The notes under the pieces were generated by a model. It was not told the origin of the DNA and did no database searches. It saw only the letters and a list, made by a program, of their open reading frames with translations. Both the position numbers and the translations under genes were made by a program. From Firmicutes bacterium ADurb.Bin300 (GTDB taxonomy: Bacteria > Bacillota > Clostridia > Oscillospirales > Acutalibacteraceae): 33,909 bases of DNA. This document shows, piece after piece, positions 20,642 through 32,745 of this stretch (the stretch's first letter is position 1; the number at the start of each line of letters is the position of its first letter). The stretch spans positions 1 through 33,909 of the forward strand of contig MWBL01000019.1 in the NCBI GenBank assembly GCA_002069015.1. Direction: 5' to 3'.

Positions 20642-20674
20642 AGACTCCTGTTTATTTTGGAGTCTTATATTTTT
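20642..20674 (+). terminator. Hairpin overlapping the 3' end of the WYL gene
   Basis: AGACTCC (20642-20648) pairs with GGAGTCT (20659-20665) around a ten-base loop, followed on the + strand by TATATTTTT. The arm lies inside the last codons of the - strand WYL gene. It would stop + strand read-through from the pseudogene side. Confidence 0.45.
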
Positions 20675-21746
20675 CTGCCATGCTCCCGGTTACTTCTGCT
20701 ATCTTTTCTCTGAAATCGGGCGGATTTATAACCTCTATGTATCTTCCGTACTGAAGTGACCAAAAGAGCATTGAGTCCTGGTTCGCCTTGACTGTTACAT
20801 CTACGGTTTTATCGGTTTCGTTTGAGAAAATCATATCATCGGAGAACCAGTCAAACAGGTCGTTCAGAATAGTCTTATCTGCATGGAAGGTTACTGTTAT
20901 GCTGCTGCCCGTGTACATATAAAAATGCTCTGCCATATGTCGGGGCAAGTTAAACCCGTTTTTATAATCGACAAGCAGGCTTTTATCCTTTGCCGGAGTG
21001 TCAAGAAGCTTTATGTCGGTTATATAATCGAGCCTGTAATGAGCAATATTGTCATATTTATCGTAATTGGCAATTAAATAATACCTCCCGTTTGCAGCGA
21101 CCATTTGATAGGGGTTGATTATATAGCTTCTTATGCTGCCGTCGCTTGCAAGACGCGGGCAGAGCTTTTTGTCCGTATTAAAAGAGCAATACGAAAAGGA
21201 AACCTGACGCTCCTTGTCGATAGCCTCATCAAGAATTTCAACCGTATAAAAAAGCTGCTTATTCTTACAGGACCTTTCGATCATAGTATCAATATGCTTT
21301 ATGCGAGCTTTGAAATACTTGCTTGAGAGCTTTTCAAGCTTTTTGGAAAGAGCGCGGCAGTGAGAGTTCGGCAAATGCTTGGAAAAGAGCAGACCGTCAA
21401 TCAAAAGACGAAGCTCCGCGTCACTGAAATCCCGTGAGATATACCATCCGTCGCTTTTACTCACAACATATTCTTCACCGTCTTTATAGCGGGTTGCAAC
21501 ATTTTTTTCCGTACAGCAAACGCAATACTCATGGTCCTCGTATTCCGAAAAGAAATATTTCAGCTCCGAAAGTGTATTGCTGACGGTTTTTCTGTTCAAA
21601 TCCAAACCGTAATCCGTCTGAAGCTTACTGCAAATTTCAGATATTGTGAGTGAATGTCCGTAAAATGAATCCGTATGCTCCTTAAGTATTTCAAGAATGC
21701 ACAGCGGCGCCGTTTTTTTTGAAAGGTCAATCTTAAATTCTGCCAT
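20652..21746 (-). CDS. WYL-domain transcriptional regulator next to the cas operon
   Basis: A 364-residue regulator. A winged-helix region comes first, with LTISEICSKL and LNRKTVSNTLSELKYF (about residues 31-66). A WYL domain follows with YYLIANYDKYDNIAHYRLDYI, and a C-terminal WCX part ends with QYGRYIEVINPPDFREKIAE. Such proteins sense a nucleic acid or nucleotide ligand and often control CRISPR-Cas operons. I start it at ATG 21746, after GGAGGCGG (21751-21758); the longer frame to 21797 lacks a binding site. It is divergent from cas7, with 118 bases between the starts, and probably controls both promoters. The link to this particular operon is from position only. Confidence 0.85.
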   Translation of the reverse strand: MAEFKIDLSKKTAPLCILEILKEHTDSFYGHSLTISEICSKLQTDYGLDLNRKTVSNTLSELKYFFSEYEDHEYCVCCTEKNVATRYKDGEEYVVSKSDGWYISRDFSDAELRLLIDGLLFSKHLPNSHCRALSKKLEKLSSKYFKARIKHIDTMIERSCKNKQLFYTVEILDEAIDKERQVSFSYCSFNTDKKLCPRLASDGSIRSYIINPYQMVAANGRYYLIANYDKYDNIAHYRLDYITDIKLLDTPAKDKSLLVDYKNGFNLPRHMAEHFYMYTGSSITVTFHADKTILNDLFDWFSDDMIFSNETDKTVDVTVKANQDSMLFWSLQYGRYIEVINPPDFREKIAEVTGSMAEKYKTPK

Positions 21747-21777
21747 TTTACCGCCTCCAATATAGAAAATACCATTT

Positions 21778-21807
21778 ATTACAAAAAATTTCAACATATT
21801 ATGGCAA
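21778..21807 (-). promoter_or_regulatory. Candidate promoter of the WYL regulator
   Basis: Read on the - strand, TTGCCA (21807-21802) and TGTAAT (21783-21778) are 18 bases apart, a reasonable sigma-70-type pair. Transcription would start about 25 bases before the WYL start codon. It overlaps the direct repeats described separately, which fits autoregulation. Confidence 0.4.
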
Positions 21808-21824: not shown

Positions 21825-21864
21825 TATGGTAGAATGTAGAAAATAATTTCAGCAGGTGACAAAA

Positions 21865-22707
21865 GTGGATTATAAGGGAATCGCAAGAAAAGATTCCACA
21901 GGGAAAACACAGACTATATGCGAACATGCAAACCCTAACGGCGACCCGCTTGGCGGTAACCGTCCGCGCACGACAAGTGATAACTTTGGAGAAGTTACAG
22001 ATGTTTGCTTAAAACGAAAAATTCGTAACCGTTTGCAGGAAATGGGTAACGACATTTTCGTGCAAATGGATGAAAGCAATATTGACGGAGAGAAATCCCT
22101 GTCAGATCGTTTTAATCATTTCCTTGCGGCACTCAGCAAAGACGAACAAAAAAACAAAGACATCATTTCAAAAAAAGTATGTGAAAGATGGTTTGATGTG
22201 CGTTCTTTCGGTCAAGTTTTTGCCTTTAAAAAGGTCAATGACACAGCGGAGGTTTCGATTGGAGTAAGGGGTCCTGTCACAATACAGTCTGCTTTTAGCG
22301 TTGAACCGATTATAATTGAATCTATTCAGATTACAAAATCAGTAAACAGCGAAACAACCCTTGACGGCAAGAAATCATCAGATACTATGGGTATGAAGCA
22401 CCGGGTAAATAAAGCCGTGTATGTTACATATGGAAGTATCAGCCCGCAGCTTGCTGAAAAAACAGGTTTTTCCGACGCTGACGCAAAATTTATTAAAAAA
22501 GCTCTAGTTTCTCTTTTTGAAGGAGATGAGTCTTCAGCCCGTCCGAGTGGTTCTATGCAAGTTTCAAGGGTAGTTTGGTTTGAACATAGCAGCAAATCAG
22601 GTCAATACTCCTCATCAAAAGTTCATAATAGTGTTAAGGTTGATGTCAATGGAAATGTGACAATTGAATCACTTACCGGATTGAACCCTGAAGTTTTGGA
22701 AGGATGA
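21865..22707 (+). CDS. cas7: Type I-C Cas7 (Csd2) with a Cas3-like N-terminus, deletion fusion
   Basis: From EHANPNGDPLGGNRPRT onward this is a type I-C Cas7, the backbone subunit that coats crRNA in Cascade. DVCLKRKIRNRLQ and SFGQVFAF are further Cas7c marks. The first 21 or so residues, MDYKGIARKDSTGKTQTICE, do not look like Cas7, which starts with a beta strand of the type IDFAVIxSVEHANPNG. They resemble the start of type I-C Cas3 (YIA..KDGKxQTxxEH). I start it at GTG 21865, six bases after AGCAGGTG. The protein has 280 residues. cas3, cas5 and cas8c should stand between the promoter and cas7 and are absent. Loss of the first strand of the RRM fold probably harms the protein. Confidence 0.82.
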   Translation: MDYKGIARKDSTGKTQTICEHANPNGDPLGGNRPRTTSDNFGEVTDVCLKRKIRNRLQEMGNDIFVQMDESNIDGEKSLSDRFNHFLAALSKDEQKNKDIISKKVCERWFDVRSFGQVFAFKKVNDTAEVSIGVRGPVTIQSAFSVEPIIIESIQITKSVNSETTLDGKKSSDTMGMKHRVNKAVYVTYGSISPQLAEKTGFSDADAKFIKKALVSLFEGDESSARPSGSMQVSRVVWFEHSSKSGQYSSSKVHNSVKVDVNGNVTIESLTGLNPEVLEG

Positions 22708-23363
22708 GTTACGAGGAAGACGATTATTTATTTATCTCCGGGATACAGCATTATGCTTTTTGCCCGCGACAATGGGCGCTAATCCATATTGAAGCTCAAT
22801 GGAACGAGAATTATCTTACCACGAGTGGCAAGATTCTACACGTAAAAGCACACGATGGTGATTCCGTCGAAAAACGCGGTGATATAATTATATTTCGCGC
22901 TTTGAAGGTGTGTTCTGTTGAGCTTGGTATTTCCGGAGAGTGTGATATTGTTGAATTCCGCAAAGCTGATAACGGTATTTCAATTAACGGCTGCGACGGA
23001 CTATGGGTACCGTACCCTGTGGAGTATAAGCGTGGAAAAACAAAGGTTGACGACTGCGATAGGTTACAACTATGCGCACAAGCGGTATGTCTCGAAGAAA
23101 TGCTTTGCACAGAAATTGGCAGCGGGGCACTTTTTTACGGCGAACCTCGCAGAAGAGAGCTTGTTGATTTTACGCCTAAACTTAAGACGAAGCTAACCGA
23201 TACAGTAAAATCAATGCATGAGATGTTCTCTCGCAAGCACACGCCAAATGCTGAAAAGGGAAAACGTTGCCAAAGTTGCAGTATCAAAGAGTTATGTTTG
23301 CCGAGACTTGGAGAAAAAGGTAAAGCCTCTGTGAGAAGGTATATGGAGGCGCATTTAGAATGA
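22704..23363 (+). CDS. cas4: CRISPR-associated Cas4 nuclease
   Basis: A 219-residue RecB-type nuclease that trims prespacers and sets PAM and orientation during spacer uptake together with Cas1-Cas2. The nuclease residues lie in GECDIVEF and PVEYKRGK. Four cysteines for the Fe-S cluster are visible, one in AFCPRQW near residue 20 and three in CQSCSIKELC near the C-terminus. The start overlaps the cas7 stop by ATGA, and its own stop overlaps cas1 in the same way. Length and motifs are complete, so the protein should be active. Confidence 0.92.
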   Translation: MSYEEDDYLFISGIQHYAFCPRQWALIHIEAQWNENYLTTSGKILHVKAHDGDSVEKRGDIIIFRALKVCSVELGISGECDIVEFRKADNGISINGCDGLWVPYPVEYKRGKTKVDDCDRLQLCAQAVCLEEMLCTEIGSGALFYGEPRRRELVDFTPKLKTKLTDTVKSMHEMFSRKHTPNAEKGKRCQSCSIKELCLPRLGEKGKASVRRYMEAHLE

Positions 23364-24388
23364 GAAAGTTATTAAATGTGTTATTTGTTACACAGCCGGA
23401 TGTAAAAGTAAATCTTGAAACAGATAATGTCTATGTCAAAAAAGATGATAAAGTATTATTAAGTGTGCCGCTGTTGAATCTGGAACAAATAATTCTTTTT
23501 AATTATTTCGGCGCGACACCGCAGCTTTTGGGAGAATGCGTAAAGCGAAAGATTTCTGTTAGCTTTCTCAGTGAATATGGGAAATATTATGGCACTTTTT
23601 ACGGCGAGTCAAGCGGTAATGTGCTTCTCAGGCGAGAACAATACCGAATTGCTGACGATAGCCGTGCTTTGGATTTTGCAAAAAACTTCATTTTCGGTAA
23701 ATTACATAATCAAAAATGCGTAATAGAGCGTGGAATTAGAGATTATTCTTTAAGAATAGATACCGAGTTACTAAAAAAGCAAAGTCAATTTATTAAAGAA
23801 CAATTAAAACAAGTTTTTAGCATAGAAAACAAGGAAAACTCCCGAGCAGTAGAGGGAAATGCGGCGCATTACTACTTTTCTGCATTTGATGAGCTGATTT
23901 TGCAAAACAAAGACTTTTTTACATTTAAAACTCGGAATCGTCGCCCTCCGACTGATGCGGTCAACGCAATGTTGTCTTTTGCCTATACATTGCTTGCAAT
24001 CGATTGCCGTCATGCGCTTGAGGTTGTCGGATTAGATAGTTATGTAGGATTTTTACACGCAGACAGACCCGGCAGAGCGTCCCTTGCGCTTGATTTAATG
24101 GAAGAGTTACGCCCGCATTTTGCAGACAGATTTGTTCTGTCCTTAATAAATCGTAATGAAGTAACAAAATCAGACTTTGAGACTCAAAGCTCCGGCGCAG
24201 TGTATTTATCATCTGCCTCGCGTAAAAAGTTTCTGTCATCGTGGCAAAACCGAAAGAAAGAAGAAATTATTCATCCATTCTTAAAAGAAAAGGTTGAATG
24301 GGGGTTGGTACCATATTGTCAAGCGTTATTATTGGCAAGAACAATACGTGGAGACTTGGACGGTTACCCGCCTTTCTTGTGGAAGTGA
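23360..24388 (+). CDS. cas1: CRISPR-associated integrase Cas1 (type I-C)
   Basis: A 342-residue Cas1, the integrase that joins new spacers to the leader end of the array. The catalytic residues are all visible: E165 in VEGNAAHYYF, H233 in FLHADRPGR, and the acidic pair D245/E248 in LDLMEELRP. The N-terminal beta domain (LFVTQPDVKVNLETDNVYV) is intact and the length is normal for type I-C. The start overlaps cas4 by ATGA. Nothing points to decay here, in contrast to cas7. Confidence 0.95.
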   Translation: MRKLLNVLFVTQPDVKVNLETDNVYVKKDDKVLLSVPLLNLEQIILFNYFGATPQLLGECVKRKISVSFLSEYGKYYGTFYGESSGNVLLRREQYRIADDSRALDFAKNFIFGKLHNQKCVIERGIRDYSLRIDTELLKKQSQFIKEQLKQVFSIENKENSRAVEGNAAHYYFSAFDELILQNKDFFTFKTRNRRPPTDAVNAMLSFAYTLLAIDCRHALEVVGLDSYVGFLHADRPGRASLALDLMEELRPHFADRFVLSLINRNEVTKSDFETQSSGAVYLSSASRKKFLSSWQNRKKEEIIHPFLKEKVEWGLVPYCQALLLARTIRGDLDGYPPFLWK

Positions 24389-24400
24389 GGGGAAAAGAGT

Positions 24401-24691
24401 ATGCTGGTATTGTTAACATATGATGTTTCGACTGAAACGGCAGACGGGAAGAAACGCTTAAACCGTGTTGCAAAAAAATGTTTATCCTATGGACAACGAG
24501 TTCAAAACTCAGTTTTTGAATGCAATATTGACTGGAGTAAATATCTTGAATTACAAAATGAATTAAAAGCTATTATAAATACAGAAAAAGATAGCTTACG
24601 TTTTTATAATCTCGGTAATAACTATTCACAAAAGGTTATTCATATAGGAATTAAGCCGAGCGTTGATTTTGAAGGAGATTTAATAGTATAG
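24401..24691 (+). CDS. cas2: CRISPR-associated Cas2
   Basis: A 96-residue Cas2, the dimer that holds two Cas1 dimers together during spacer integration. MLVLLTYDVSTETADGKKRL with the conserved Asp at residue 8 and SYGQRVQNSVFEC are characteristic of type I-C Cas2. GAGGGGAAAAG in front of ATG 24401 is the ribosome binding site. The gap to cas1 is 12 bases. It is the last gene of the operon, and the array leader follows at once. Confidence 0.94.
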   Translation: MLVLLTYDVSTETADGKKRLNRVAKKCLSYGQRVQNSVFECNIDWSKYLELQNELKAIINTEKDSLRFYNLGNNYSQKVIHIGIKPSVDFEGDLIV

Positions 24692-24848: not shown

Positions 24849-25078
24849 GTCGCCCTCTGCGTGGGGGCGTGGATTGAAATAATCAAAGCATTGTCTGATG
24901 CATTGGTCATAACGTCGCCCTCTGCGTGGGGGCGTGGATTGAAATCTTGAGTGCCTTGAGTTGGTCGTCTATGCCGATGTCGCCCTCTGCGTGGGGGCGT
25001 GGATTGAAATTTGCAAAAGCAGACGAATACAAAGTACAGATTGAAAGTCGCCCTCTGTGTGGGGGCGTGGATTGAAAT
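24849..25078 (+). CRISPR. Type I-C CRISPR array, four repeats and three spacers
   Basis: Four 32-base repeats begin GTCGCCCTCTG and end GGGGCGTGGATTGAAAT, the classical type I-C repeat. They lie at 24849-24880, 24914-24945, 24979-25010 and 25047-25078. The first three are identical. The fourth has C to T in its centre, as expected for the leader-distal end. Spacers are 33, 33 and 36 bases (24881-24913, 24946-24978, 25011-25046). The array is very short, which fits a locus that has lost interference and gains or keeps few spacers. Confidence 0.97.
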
Positions 25079-27498: not shown

Positions 27499-29190
27499 TC
27501 ATCCAAGTAGCTGTCGAATTTTACTTGTCAATAAAGCCTTTCGCTTTTCATAGAACTCTTCGAAATTCTCCAGTTCGAGGGAGACATCGTCTGGAATGAG
27601 AGCCTCTTTACGGAATTTAGCCTTCTGTTCATCATTCATATCATTGTAAAAATCAACGAGACGCATTGCGTTTTTACTTCCGTTACTTCTGCCTTCAAGC
27701 AGCTGCAGGTTAGGTAATCTATTTCTGTTACTTCTCCATTTACGCCAATCGTCCATAGATACGGTAATCGGTTTCGTACTATCGAACCTATCATATGGGT
27801 GCAAATGATCTTGCTCGTATTTAAAATTCCTATTTATCCAATCAACACCCAAGAAATACAGAGCTTCTCCGGCAACACGGCTGCCTTTTTCAGAGTTGAT
27901 AATATCATCAATTTTGCCATCAGTTACTCGCAGGTCAGTCATCTGCTCCAACATATCAACGGTAATTTCATAATCGTTGTCATTGATGCTGCTTTTCATC
28001 TGCTGTAGTTTGCTTGTAGTGCCTGATTGGAAGTAGGTGAATAACACAGCTCGAATAAGATATGCTCTGATGCCGTCCAAATTGTTTGCATAATCTGGGT
28101 TATAGTACATGAAATAAATAATCGGTAACAGCACGTTCCAACTGCTTGAAAAACGGCTTACTTCGATTTTCATGCTCTTTAATACATCTTCAAGATTTCT
28201 AAGCGTCTTCTTGAATTCCTGCCAGTTGTTTTTTAAATCTTCCGCAATCTGCTTGTTGATATTAGACTTTACAACATCTCCATAAAGCATAAGTGCAGAG
28301 CGTACAACAAAATCGGAACCGAAGCCGGCGTAAGAACCATCTAACAGCTTTCCAAATTCGGTCTTTGCATTAGGCCAATAAGCCTCAAGGATGGACATTG
28401 TGATTTCATGTTTCTTCAGTGCTTTACCACCACTGTTGAAACGGACAAACATCTCCAATGCATCATCCTGTTTCATATCCTTGATTTCGGTATAACGAAT
28501 CAGTTTCTCAACAAAAATCTTATTGTAGAGTTTATTGAGAATATTGCGGGCATACTCTTTGCTGTCAGCAGGCACATTAGCGATGGCAGCTTCAATAGCC
28601 TGATCTCTTGTATTTTCGTCTTGAAATTTTTCACTGAGAATTTCCTTGATTTCAAACTGTGTCGGACTAAGTTTTCCGACTTTCTCGGTAAACTTAATGT
28701 CAAATTTCTTGCTGTTGTATTCTTCTTCATCAACAGTCAGCTTGTTTTTGTTCAGCTCTATCAACAACTTGACTACCGTACCGCCAGGAACATTCTTTCT
28801 TGCGTGCTTTTGTCTGATGTACGCGCGTCCAAAAAGAGACAGGAACAAAGAGGTTAACCTCTGCTGCCCATCCAAAATTGCTGTATCAGTTATTTTAACA
28901 TTGATATTACTCAACTCATAATTAACACTGTCTGCCTGCTTTCTGCTGTCGAATGTAACTTCCGATAAGAAATTACAAAAATAGGTATCCCAACTAACGT
29001 TATCATCATCGACATGCCAAAACAGAAAGGTGGCTATAGGGTAATCTAAAAGAATGGAGTCCCACAGTTTTTCAATCTGCTCCATGCTCCACACATACTG
29101 CCTTTGAAATGCCGGCATAACATACTTCCCATTTTTTATATGTTCCAGCGCCTCATATATAGTGATGCTGCTATCTATTAAAACGCTCAT
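27499..29190 (-). CDS. DUF262-DUF1524 protein (GmrSD/SspE-like nuclease, probable phage defence)
   Basis: A 563-residue protein with an N-terminal DUF262 (ParB-like) domain and a C-terminal DUF1524 HNH-type nuclease part. MPAFQRQYVWSMEQIEKLWDSI (starting at residue 25) and ILDGQQRLTSL (DGQQR at 107-111) are the nucleotide-binding motifs of DUF262. D461, H462 and H464 in EQDHLHPYDRF, with the later Asn residues N488, N490, N494 and N507, fit the HNH metal centre. Relatives (GmrSD, BrxU, SspE) cut phage DNA with modified bases or act with DNA phosphorothioation. No ssp or dnd genes are near. It starts two bases after the RHH gene with GAGAGGAG in front. Confidence 0.88.
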   Translation of the reverse strand: MSVLIDSSITIYEALEHIKNGKYVMPAFQRQYVWSMEQIEKLWDSILLDYPIATFLFWHVDDDNVSWDTYFCNFLSEVTFDSRKQADSVNYELSNINVKITDTAILDGQQRLTSLFLSLFGRAYIRQKHARKNVPGGTVVKLLIELNKNKLTVDEEEYNSKKFDIKFTEKVGKLSPTQFEIKEILSEKFQDENTRDQAIEAAIANVPADSKEYARNILNKLYNKIFVEKLIRYTEIKDMKQDDALEMFVRFNSGGKALKKHEITMSILEAYWPNAKTEFGKLLDGSYAGFGSDFVVRSALMLYGDVVKSNINKQIAEDLKNNWQEFKKTLRNLEDVLKSMKIEVSRFSSSWNVLLPIIYFMYYNPDYANNLDGIRAYLIRAVLFTYFQSGTTSKLQQMKSSINDNDYEITVDMLEQMTDLRVTDGKIDDIINSEKGSRVAGEALYFLGVDWINRNFKYEQDHLHPYDRFDSTKPITVSMDDWRKWRSNRNRLPNLQLLEGRSNGSKNAMRLVDFYNDMNDEQKAKFRKEALIPDDVSLELENFEEFYEKRKALLTSKIRQLLG

Positions 29191-29848: not shown

Positions 29849-31444
29849 TTATCCTTCAACCTCCATCCCGTTTCTGAAGCGGAAGAGTAGCTTTCCGCTG
29901 TGCTTGACCACTGCGCTGTCAATAACCGAGATCCAAAGTTTACTGTCAAATTCTGTGACCGGCTCATCGGTTTCATGTAACTCAAACATGAATGCGCTGA
30001 TTGAATCCGCCTGTGCCTTCCGCTGTTCGCTCTCTTGCTGCAGTTTTTCTACCTTCTCCTTGAGGCCGTTGTAGCGGTCTTCATAGCCTTTGTATTTCCG
30101 GCTGAATCCCGCCTGATCCATTGATTTTGCGGCATTTTCCTCAATAAGCTTTCGTGTAAGACCTGTGACTACTTCAGCCTCTTGGAGGAGGTCGGCAATC
30201 TTTCTATCAATTTCAGTAGTGTCGGTCAGCACATCCATCATCCGCCTGCAGTCATCGAGAGTGTTCGCCTTGTCCGGTATTAGACTGTTATAAGCTACTA
30301 TGAACCTTGCCTTAATATCATCTTCGGTTAGATGCGGTGTTGTGCAGCGTGGTTTATTATCCTTGAACTTATCGTTGCATTGCCATATCGTCCGCTTGTA
30401 CTTACTGGTTGAGTTCCAGGTCTTAGCACCGAAGAACCCTCCGCAGTCTTCGCATATAAGTCTTGATCCGAACACGCTGTTCCCACTGTATCTTCTGCCA
30501 AGTCTTTTTCGCCGTGCCATCTCAAGCTGAACCAGATTCCAGTCCTCTGGGGAAATGATGGCATCGTGTGAATGCTCAATGTAGTACTGCGGAACTTCAC
30601 CGTTGTTTTCTTTCATTTTGTGCTGAAGGAAGTCCACCGTGAATTTCTTCTGAAGAAGCGCGGAGCCTTTGTACTTCTCGTTTGAAAGGATGCTCTCAAT
30701 AACGGCAGAGCCCCATTTGTCCTTGCCGCCCGGAGTAGGTATGCCTTCGTCGGTGAGGGTTTTGGCAATAGTAAACGGAGTCTTACCTTCAATGAACATA
30801 GTGTAGATTCTCCGAACGATAGCAGCCTGGTCTTCCACGATTACAAGCGGATGGTCTTTGTCTGGGCCTTTCTCATAACCGAGGAAAGAACTGTAGGCAA
30901 GGCTGAGCTTACCGTCCGAGAATCGCTTCCGGTGTCCCCACGTGACATTCTCTGAAATTGACCGACTTTCCTCCTGGGCAAGGGATGACATTATGGTGAT
31001 CAGCACTTCGCCTTTGGTGTCGAAGGTGTAGATGTTCTCCTTCTCGAAATATACTTCTACATTATGTTCCTTGAGTTTTCGGACATAGGTAAGGGTGTCG
31101 ACCGTATTCCTTGCGAACCTTGAAATGGACTTTGTAACGATCAGGTCAATCTTCCCGTCAAGGGCATCCCGAATCATTCTATTGAAACCTGCACGGTGTT
31201 TGGTGTTTGTACCGCTGATGCCTTCATCCGTGTAAACATCTACGAGAGTCCAGTCCGGATTGCTTTTTATGAACTGCGTGTAATAATCGACCTGTGCCTG
31301 GTAGCTTGTGTACTGCTCATCACTGTCTGTGGAAACACGGGCATATCCTGCAACCCTACGTTTTGCTATTGCCATATCCGGTATTCTTGTTGCCGGGTTT
31401 ATCTTCGGCGGTATGACTTTTACCGAACGAGCCGTAGCTGCCAT
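29849..31444 (-). CDS. Large serine recombinase, 531 residues (second of a pair)
   Basis: A large serine recombinase of the phage integrase/Ccr type. The catalytic Ser is S38 in YARVSTD. TKSISRFARNT and SSLAQEESRSISENV complete the resolvase domain. The recombinase domain (GIPTPGGKDKWGSAVIESIL) and a zinc ribbon with CEDCGGFF and a later WQC follow. The C-terminal coiled coil (about 430-490) ends before a short tail. The start ATG overlaps the stop of the upstream recombinase by one base (TAATG). It is full length. With its neighbour it would integrate and excise the element lying to the right. Which of the two is the main integrase is not clear. Confidence 0.92.
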   Translation of the reverse strand: MAATARSVKVIPPKINPATRIPDMAIAKRRVAGYARVSTDSDEQYTSYQAQVDYYTQFIKSNPDWTLVDVYTDEGISGTNTKHRAGFNRMIRDALDGKIDLIVTKSISRFARNTVDTLTYVRKLKEHNVEVYFEKENIYTFDTKGEVLITIMSSLAQEESRSISENVTWGHRKRFSDGKLSLAYSSFLGYEKGPDKDHPLVIVEDQAAIVRRIYTMFIEGKTPFTIAKTLTDEGIPTPGGKDKWGSAVIESILSNEKYKGSALLQKKFTVDFLQHKMKENNGEVPQYYIEHSHDAIISPEDWNLVQLEMARRKRLGRRYSGNSVFGSRLICEDCGGFFGAKTWNSTSKYKRTIWQCNDKFKDNKPRCTTPHLTEDDIKARFIVAYNSLIPDKANTLDDCRRMMDVLTDTTEIDRKIADLLQEAEVVTGLTRKLIEENAAKSMDQAGFSRKYKGYEDRYNGLKEKVEKLQQESEQRKAQADSISAFMFELHETDEPVTEFDSKLWISVIDSAVVKHSGKLLFRFRNGMEVEG

Positions 31445-32745
31445 TACTTATCCCTCCTTTGCCTAAGCGCTCTTTGCCTTGCCACTTCCCTCATTTCCGG
31501 AGTCCACGACTCCGAGCGGGATCGGTCTTTCCACTTCCTTTCCTCTGGGTGGCCGTCTTTAAATATAAAAGTCAGTCTATTTGCACCCGGCACCTCAATG
31601 GAGTCAATGCGGTTTTTGAACACTTCGCTATCAAAAAAATCGAGTTCAAGGACTTCGGCAGTCACGGATTCAAGTATTCCTTCCGGTATCTGCTTGGCGG
31701 TACAACCGGCTCTTCCTTTTTCCTGAAAGGCTTTGCAGTTCCAGTAGACTTTGCCGTTGCGGGTAACACGTTTGAAGTTTTCCCCGCAGAGTCCGCACTT
31801 AATGATGCTTGTGAACGGATAGCGTTTCGGCGGTCTTTTCCCACAGTGCTTTGCCTTTACGGCTCTTACGACTTCTTGTGCCTTTTCAAAAGTCTCCCTG
31901 TCTATGATTGCTTCGTGGGTGCCCTCCGCATAGTACTTCGGAAGTTCGCCTTTGTTCCTCACAAGCTTTTTCTCCATATGGTTATTCACATACCGCTTTT
32001 GAAGAACGGCATCACCAATATATTTCTCATTGCTGAGCATTTCGGTGATGCGGCTGGCTGTCCACTTTTTTCCGAAGACCGTGTAAATACCTCTTGCATT
32101 CAGATCTCTGCAGATGCTGCTGAAGGATTCACCGGCAATGGCTCGATTGAAGATGTCCTTAACCACTTCTGCCTGCGCCGGGTTGATTTCAACCTTGTCC
32201 TTCGTGATGTTGTAACCAAACTGGTAATGCCACTGTAGAACCTCACCTTTTTCGTAGGACTTGCGTATCCGCCACTTTTGATTTTCGCTTGCCGACCGGC
32301 TTTCTTCCTGGGCATAACTTGCGAGAATGGTCAGCATCAGTTCTCCTTCACCGCTCAAGGTGTGAATGTTCTGCTCTTCGAAGTAAACATCAATCCCAAG
32401 TTCCTTTAATTCACGGACGGTGTTAAGAAGGGTCAGCGTATTCCGGGCAAAACGCGATATGGACTTTGTAATGACCATATCAATTTTTCCGGCGCGGCAA
32501 TCCTTAAGAAGCCGCTGAAAGTTCTCTCTGTCATCCTTCGTTCCGGTCATGGCTTCATCGGCATACACGCCACAGTAATGCCAACCCGGATGATTTTGTA
32601 TCATCTCGGCATAGTAGCTTACCTGGGCGGATAAGGAATGCAGCATGGCGTCTTTACCGGACGATACTCTTCCATAGGCAGCCACGTTAAGAAGTTTTGG
32701 CTGCTTCGGAAAATTTGCATCAATTTTTTGTACCTTTCTATCCAT
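31444..32745 (-). CDS. Large serine recombinase, 433 residues (first of a pair)
   Basis: A second large serine recombinase, with catalytic S28 in YGRVSSGKD, the resolvase stretch TKSISRFARNTLTLLN, and TILASYAQEESRSASENQ. The recombinase domain (GIYTVFGKKWTASRITEML) and a zinc ribbon (KCGLCGENF, later WNCKAF) are present. It is about 100 residues shorter than its partner, lacking the long C-terminal coiled coil. It starts at ATG 32745 after AAAGGAG. A tandem pair of unequal serine recombinases recalls ccrA/ccrB of SCC elements and many clostridial phage-like elements, in which both are needed or one helps excision. Confidence 0.92.
   Translation of the reverse strand: MDRKVQKIDANFPKQPKLLNVAAYGRVSSGKDAMLHSLSAQVSYYAEMIQNHPGWHYCGVYADEAMTGTKDDRENFQRLLKDCRAGKIDMVITKSISRFARNTLTLLNTVRELKELGIDVYFEEQNIHTLSGEGELMLTILASYAQEESRSASENQKWRIRKSYEKGEVLQWHYQFGYNITKDKVEINPAQAEVVKDIFNRAIAGESFSSICRDLNARGIYTVFGKKWTASRITEMLSNEKYIGDAVLQKRYVNNHMEKKLVRNKGELPKYYAEGTHEAIIDRETFEKAQEVVRAVKAKHCGKRPPKRYPFTSIIKCGLCGENFKRVTRNGKVYWNCKAFQEKGRAGCTAKQIPEGILESVTAEVLELDFFDSEVFKNRIDSIEVPGANRLTFIFKDGHPEERKWKDRSRSESWTPEMREVARQRALRQRRDK

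Follow-up and report, generated by a model that had tools for sequence, protein, structure and literature searches.

The window analysed here is the whole of contig C19 (33,909 nucleotides), from a genome bin (G000) of 2.2 Mb in 175 contigs, with 95% completeness and 2.63% contamination. Its CRISPR-Cas region reads, in order, as a WYL-domain gene on the minus strand, a frame that begins like cas3 and continues as cas7 (the fusion), cas4, cas1, cas2, a CRISPR array, and a spore photoproduct lyase-like gene, which matches Pfam SPL and stays under the NCBIfam cut-offs (Table 1). The fusion and cas4 overlap by four bases (ATGA), as do cas4 and cas1, and the two sigma-70-like sites reported between 21600 and 22000 both lie on the minus strand. 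The array repeat is similar to that of G076, a relative with a complete type I-C locus (25 of 32 bases), and does not recur elsewhere in the genome at three mismatches or fewer. The array is small, with 4 repeats, whereas the first 2500 bases of the corresponding locus of G076 contain 36 copies, and each of its three spacers has 0 exact matches in viral_contigs. At the end of the array (25011-25078), the last repeat carries one change and spacer 3, with 36 bases, is longer than the other two, which have 33 each. Further along, on the minus strand, we noted by eye a long DUF262-type-like frame near the CRISPR remnant (27499-29190) and two neighbouring serine-recombinase-like genes (29849-32745), which, together with the short frames that follow as far as the end of the contig, resemble the edge of an integrated mobile element.

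Table 1. Features of the type I-C remnant and its upstream neighbour in the window
Feature	Positions	Strand	Basis
WYL-domain regulator-like gene, divergent from the cas remnant	20652..21797	-	Pfam WYL, 6.6e-12
AGGTG, probable ribosome-binding site	21854..21858	+	Read directly; 6 bases before GTG 21865
cas3-derived start, codons to Glu-His	21865..21927	+	Alignment with Cas3 starts of G076 and G147; HMM score against shuffles
Zone holding the join (CATGCAAAC)	21925..21933	+	By-eye in-register comparison with cas3 and cas7 of G076 and G147
cas7/csd2 without its first 16-18 codons (stop included)	21928..22707	+	TIGR02589, 1.1e-91, 307 bits (cut-off 182)
cas4; ATG overlaps the fusion stop	22704..23363	+	TIGR00372, 108.7 bits
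cas1 (type I-C); ATG overlaps the cas4 stop	23360..24388	+	TIGR03640, 448.5 bits (cut-off 385)
cas2	24401..24691	+	TIGR01573, 73.8 bits
CRISPR array with 3 spacers between 4 repeats of 32 bases	24849..25078	+	Repeat search

The open frame of the fusion (21856-22707) translates as MTKVDYKGIARKDSTGKTQTICEHANPNGDP... and can begin at either of two GTG codons: that at 21856, used in an earlier note on this DNA, or that at 21865, which is the likelier start and the equivalent of the TTG starts of Cas3 in two relatives, G076 and G147. The Cas3 starts that match the N-terminus of the fusion are MYKDFIARKRADGATQSLYEHSNN in G076 and MFQNAVARKRNDGAIQSLQEHSKN in G147 (TTG start codons written M), and the two N-termini, (M)FQNAVARKRNDGAIQSLQEHSKN in G147 and (M)YKDFIARKRADGATQSLYEHSNN in G076, align with the window through Glu-His. 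Three lines of evidence bear on this likeness. First, 11 of 20 window residues are identical when residues 5-24 of the fusion are set against Cas3 of G076 with one gap (manual count), and a DNA alignment of the fusion start with cas3 of both relatives agrees with a cas3 origin. Second, residues 1-24 score 11.9 bits against an HMM of 71 Cas3 N-termini (68 chosen by an HD-motif pattern and 3 typed by hand), a value reached by 0 of 20,000 shuffles, 18,708 of which had scores reported by the HMM program; the best shuffle gave 11.2 bits, so the margin is small. Third, when the 26,140 24-mers without a stop from the six frames of the window are ranked against the same HMM, overlapping cuts of the fusion start take the first ten places, and the best unrelated 24-mer reaches 9.1 bits. 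Judged by these scores, the Cas3 likeness of the N-terminus exceeds chance. The earlier note had seen about 21 codons resembling the start of type I-C Cas3; the resemblance stands, and the Cas3-derived part becomes about 20 residues counted from the corrected start at GTG 21865.

At codon 25 the fusion turns into Cas7/Csd2, in agreement with the earlier reading of a Cas7 body behind a Cas3-like start: the NCBIfam profile (TIGR02589) covers residues 23-264, and since the match begins at position 11 of its 284 positions, the first Cas7 strand is missing. An Asp/Glu-Phe pair stands at most 16 residues before the Ala/Gly-Asn-Pro-Asn-Gly-Asp motif in all 108 readable Cas7 proteins of the fetched loci (7 of 115 distinct proteins were left out, one truncated at the end of its contig and six lacking the exact motif used). 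The usual strand before the motif is mostly of the K-I-D-F-A type; the window has YKGIARKDSTGKTQTICEH there instead. An AF2 model of the fusion keeps the Cas7 fold, matching the type I-C Cas7 7kha_B with a TMq of 0.76, and lays the Cas3-derived residues D9-A21 (counted from 21868) as the first Cas7 strand, a placement towards which the input alignment itself pushes the model; the first two blocks of the fusion have pLDDT values of 64 and 66, against 92 and 96 in an ordinary Cas7. G000 gives a single Cas7 match and a single Cas1 match, so no second system of that kind is seen, and phage records hold distant Cas7 relatives only (4 records, below 36% identity).

The ancestral form of the locus can be read from two complete type I-C loci of the same family, L121 (G147) and L122 (G076), the nearest complete ones found among 398 genomes sampled from that family, with a Cas1 82% identical to that of the window. 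Both have the order cas3-cas5-cas8c-cas7-cas4-cas1-cas2, as had been proposed for the type. Set beside them, and beside what makes a type I-C system complete, the window keeps the surviving genes in ancestral order, with a Cas1c of I-C type, cas4, cas2, an adjoining array and a Cas7/Csd2, though from residue 23 only, and it lacks cas8c, cas5c, the beginning of cas7 and cas3 beyond about 20 codons. The gap is recognisable at both edges, as in a deletion remnant of type I-C. The missing genes did not turn up elsewhere: cas3, sought with Cas3 of G076, was found in 0 of 22 genomes of the genus, G000 included; cas5 (the cas5c crRNA endonuclease) and cas8c (the signature large subunit) were found in 0 of 2, G000 and the same-genus bin G010; the two controls, G147 and G076, were detected throughout; and earlier searches with Cas3 and Cas8 of L012 were likewise empty. 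In principle, with the bin 95% complete, all three might sit in unbinned DNA. Among the fetched loci, counted without deduplication, cas3, cas5 and cas8 are all present in 69 of the 69 with at least 5.5 kb upstream of cas7, and cas8 in 121 of the 124 with at least 700 bases there; the three others (L008-L010) have a more distant Cas7 (39% identity) and are probably type I-B.

The same chimeric N-terminus, which beside an intact cas3 would speak against a fusion, occurs in no other Cas7 of the sampled lists (the best 80 of 577 matches, plus the 398 family genomes). L047 was listed with a match from query residue 2, and its Cas7 has an ordinary K-V-D-F-A start. A comparison of flanks through the WYL gene was discarded, the homologues within the genus being only 24-39% identical and thus giving no orthologous flank; neither L121, which covers only about 0.2 kb upstream of cas3, nor L122 has a WYL match at 1e-5.

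The Glu-His codons of the fusion match Cas3 and those from GCA onward match Cas7, so the join lies within the zone given in Table 1. In register, G076 cas3 reads GAG CAT TCA AAC AAT, G076 cas7 reads AAA AAC GCA AAT CCA, and the window reads GAA CAT GCA AAC CCT; across the nearest relatives the site is GA(A/G) CAT TCA AA in cas3 and AAA AAC GCA AAT in cas7. Both parents share CAAA(C), a stretch of 4-5 bases directly after Glu-His, the longer form applying if the lost cas7 had AAC. These bases are deduced from relatives with a Cas7 of about 75% identity, because no intact locus was found within the same genus. The earlier note had suggested that homology at the Glu-His codons could have driven the deletion, with 5-10 shared bases to be looked for at the join. 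The first proposal is not borne out, as the nearest relatives share CAAA(C) a codon or two later; of the second, the relatives give 4-5 bases, and up to 9, with one mismatch, would be possible if the lost ancestor had the His that precedes Ala-Asn in 25 of the 108 Cas7 proteins. By a rough random-sequence estimate, one or two chance joins per hundred share at least 4 bases. The length of CAAA(C) fits, without proving, the end joining at 1-9 bases of microhomology described in PMC6990116.

By far the best explanation, to which we give a probability of about 0.9, is that a single deletion of about 5.0 kb removed the stretch from cas3 to cas7 in an ordinary type I-C operon. The gene order of the relatives and the absent genes support the original suggestion that one in-frame deletion accounts for both the odd N-terminus and the missing genes. 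From the Cas3-like start, the Cas7 body, the gaps in the gene set and the relatives' order, we infer a single event that 1) would run from around codon 20 of cas3 across the whole of cas5 and cas8c to around codon 17 of cas7, the sites matching the join being 5022 bases apart in G076 and 5037 in G147; 2) was probably mediated by the very short repeat (CAAA or CAAAC) via slippage or end joining; 3) would leave the fusion in frame to the normal stop overlapping the cas4 ATG, so that translation can run into cas4-cas1-cas2; and 4) could allow spacer uptake to continue. The earlier note's proposal that these genes are expressed from the old promoter finds no support in the two sigma-70-like sites, which lie on the opposite strand. 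In the type I-C pathway, Cas5c processes the crRNA, Cas8c and Cas7 form Cascade, and Cas3 cuts. With Cas5c, Cas8c and Cas3 gone and Cas7 without its first strand, this pathway predicts neither crRNA processing nor interference, and the locus would be interference-dead, with uptake genes that are possibly live.

The deletion could be real and the fusion then kept by selection, as a working chimeric Cas7 or as a translated leader through which an uptake-only locus keeps cas4-cas1-cas2 expressed. This would be an addition to the single-deletion explanation and not an alternative to it, and we regard it as rather unlikely. The Cas7 body is little decayed, having no stops and a pN against the relatives far below pS, and this and the four-base overlaps along cas7, cas4 and cas1 are in its favour, but a neutral deletion of recent date would look no different, one deletion in three stays in frame by chance, and pS is near saturation, so that the time after the deletion is not separable in the fusion Cas7. 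Other observations go against selection: the Cas7 body deviates at 2 near-invariant positions, where the median relative deviates at none; measured by dN to G147, it is no slower than the Cas7 of G010 (0.162 in the window vs 0.160), although the Cas1 of the window is (0.122 vs 0.154); and the array has only 4 repeats. The two deviating positions and the pace against Cas1, relative to G010, are a faint hint of a possible mild relaxation of the fusion Cas7.

A parallel lies on a contig of the same genus, G010:C239 (L123/L011, JAAZGX010000168.1), from a bin that is 89% complete. It carries cas7 from the same codon, followed by cas4, cas1 and cas2, and no cas3, cas5 or cas8c was found in the bin; it differs from the window in that the contig itself breaks off at the join codon, a single base short of the Ala codon (L123 position 5085), and its visible Cas7 begins only there. 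At 2116-2147, on the minus strand, it has one repeat-like copy (26 of 32 bases) after a similar leader, and no array was found. The end of the contig at the join codon could be a coincidence or an assembler fork between intact and deleted forms, and the decay of the type I-C locus may be shared or segregating within the genus. Taken furthest, these elements would make an uptake-only CRISPR kept by selection, its chimera serving cas4-cas1-cas2 as a leader that is translated, or else being a refolded Cas7 whose first strand is a Cas3 peptide, and the same junction arisen or segregating in a sister species; we find this combination improbable.

A contig stopping exactly at the Cas7 codon of the join, as at an assembler fork between two forms, would also suit an assembly or binning artefact, with an intact operon in the cell and cas3 wrongly joined to cas7, and the genome is a bin of 175 contigs. 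This we consider very improbable: searches of the bin yielded no cas3, cas5 or cas8c, the shared stretch of at most 9 bases is far under the k-mer overlaps that assemblers usually use, and the reading frame, start codon and ribosome site of the fusion are all sound. That the N-terminus instead belongs by origin to a divergent Cas7 lineage, its resemblance to Cas3 being a matter of chance, is scarcely credible, since the AF2 placement of D9-A21 as first strand speaks for it but the shuffles, the Asp/Glu-Phe of every readable Cas7, the low pLDDT of the first two blocks and the missing genes, which are exactly those between the cas3 and cas7 parts, all speak against it.

With a single deletion as the preferred reading, the locus is a neat deletion remnant and an ordinary instance of gene loss. 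PMC6990116 describes cas genes lost by deletion and the removal of cas operons as an escape after self-targeting; the window is like such partly deleted loci in its loss of cas genes by deletion, and differs from self-targeting escape in that its three spacers have no self-target in the window outside the array, where the best matches cover 22 of 33-36 bases. The available part of PMC12669027 has nothing on such remnants, and no title or abstract opening among the literature matches listed names a cas3-cas7 fusion, which is weak evidence. The window offers a clean molecular record of the way in which a type I-C locus can lose interference and keep its spacer-uptake genes open, with both edges of the loss still readable. 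It also carries a warning for annotation: the N-terminus of this Cas7 is chimeric, and the locus does not belong in a count of functional type I-C systems. If the fusion was kept by selection, it would bear on the usefulness of uptake-only CRISPR loci.
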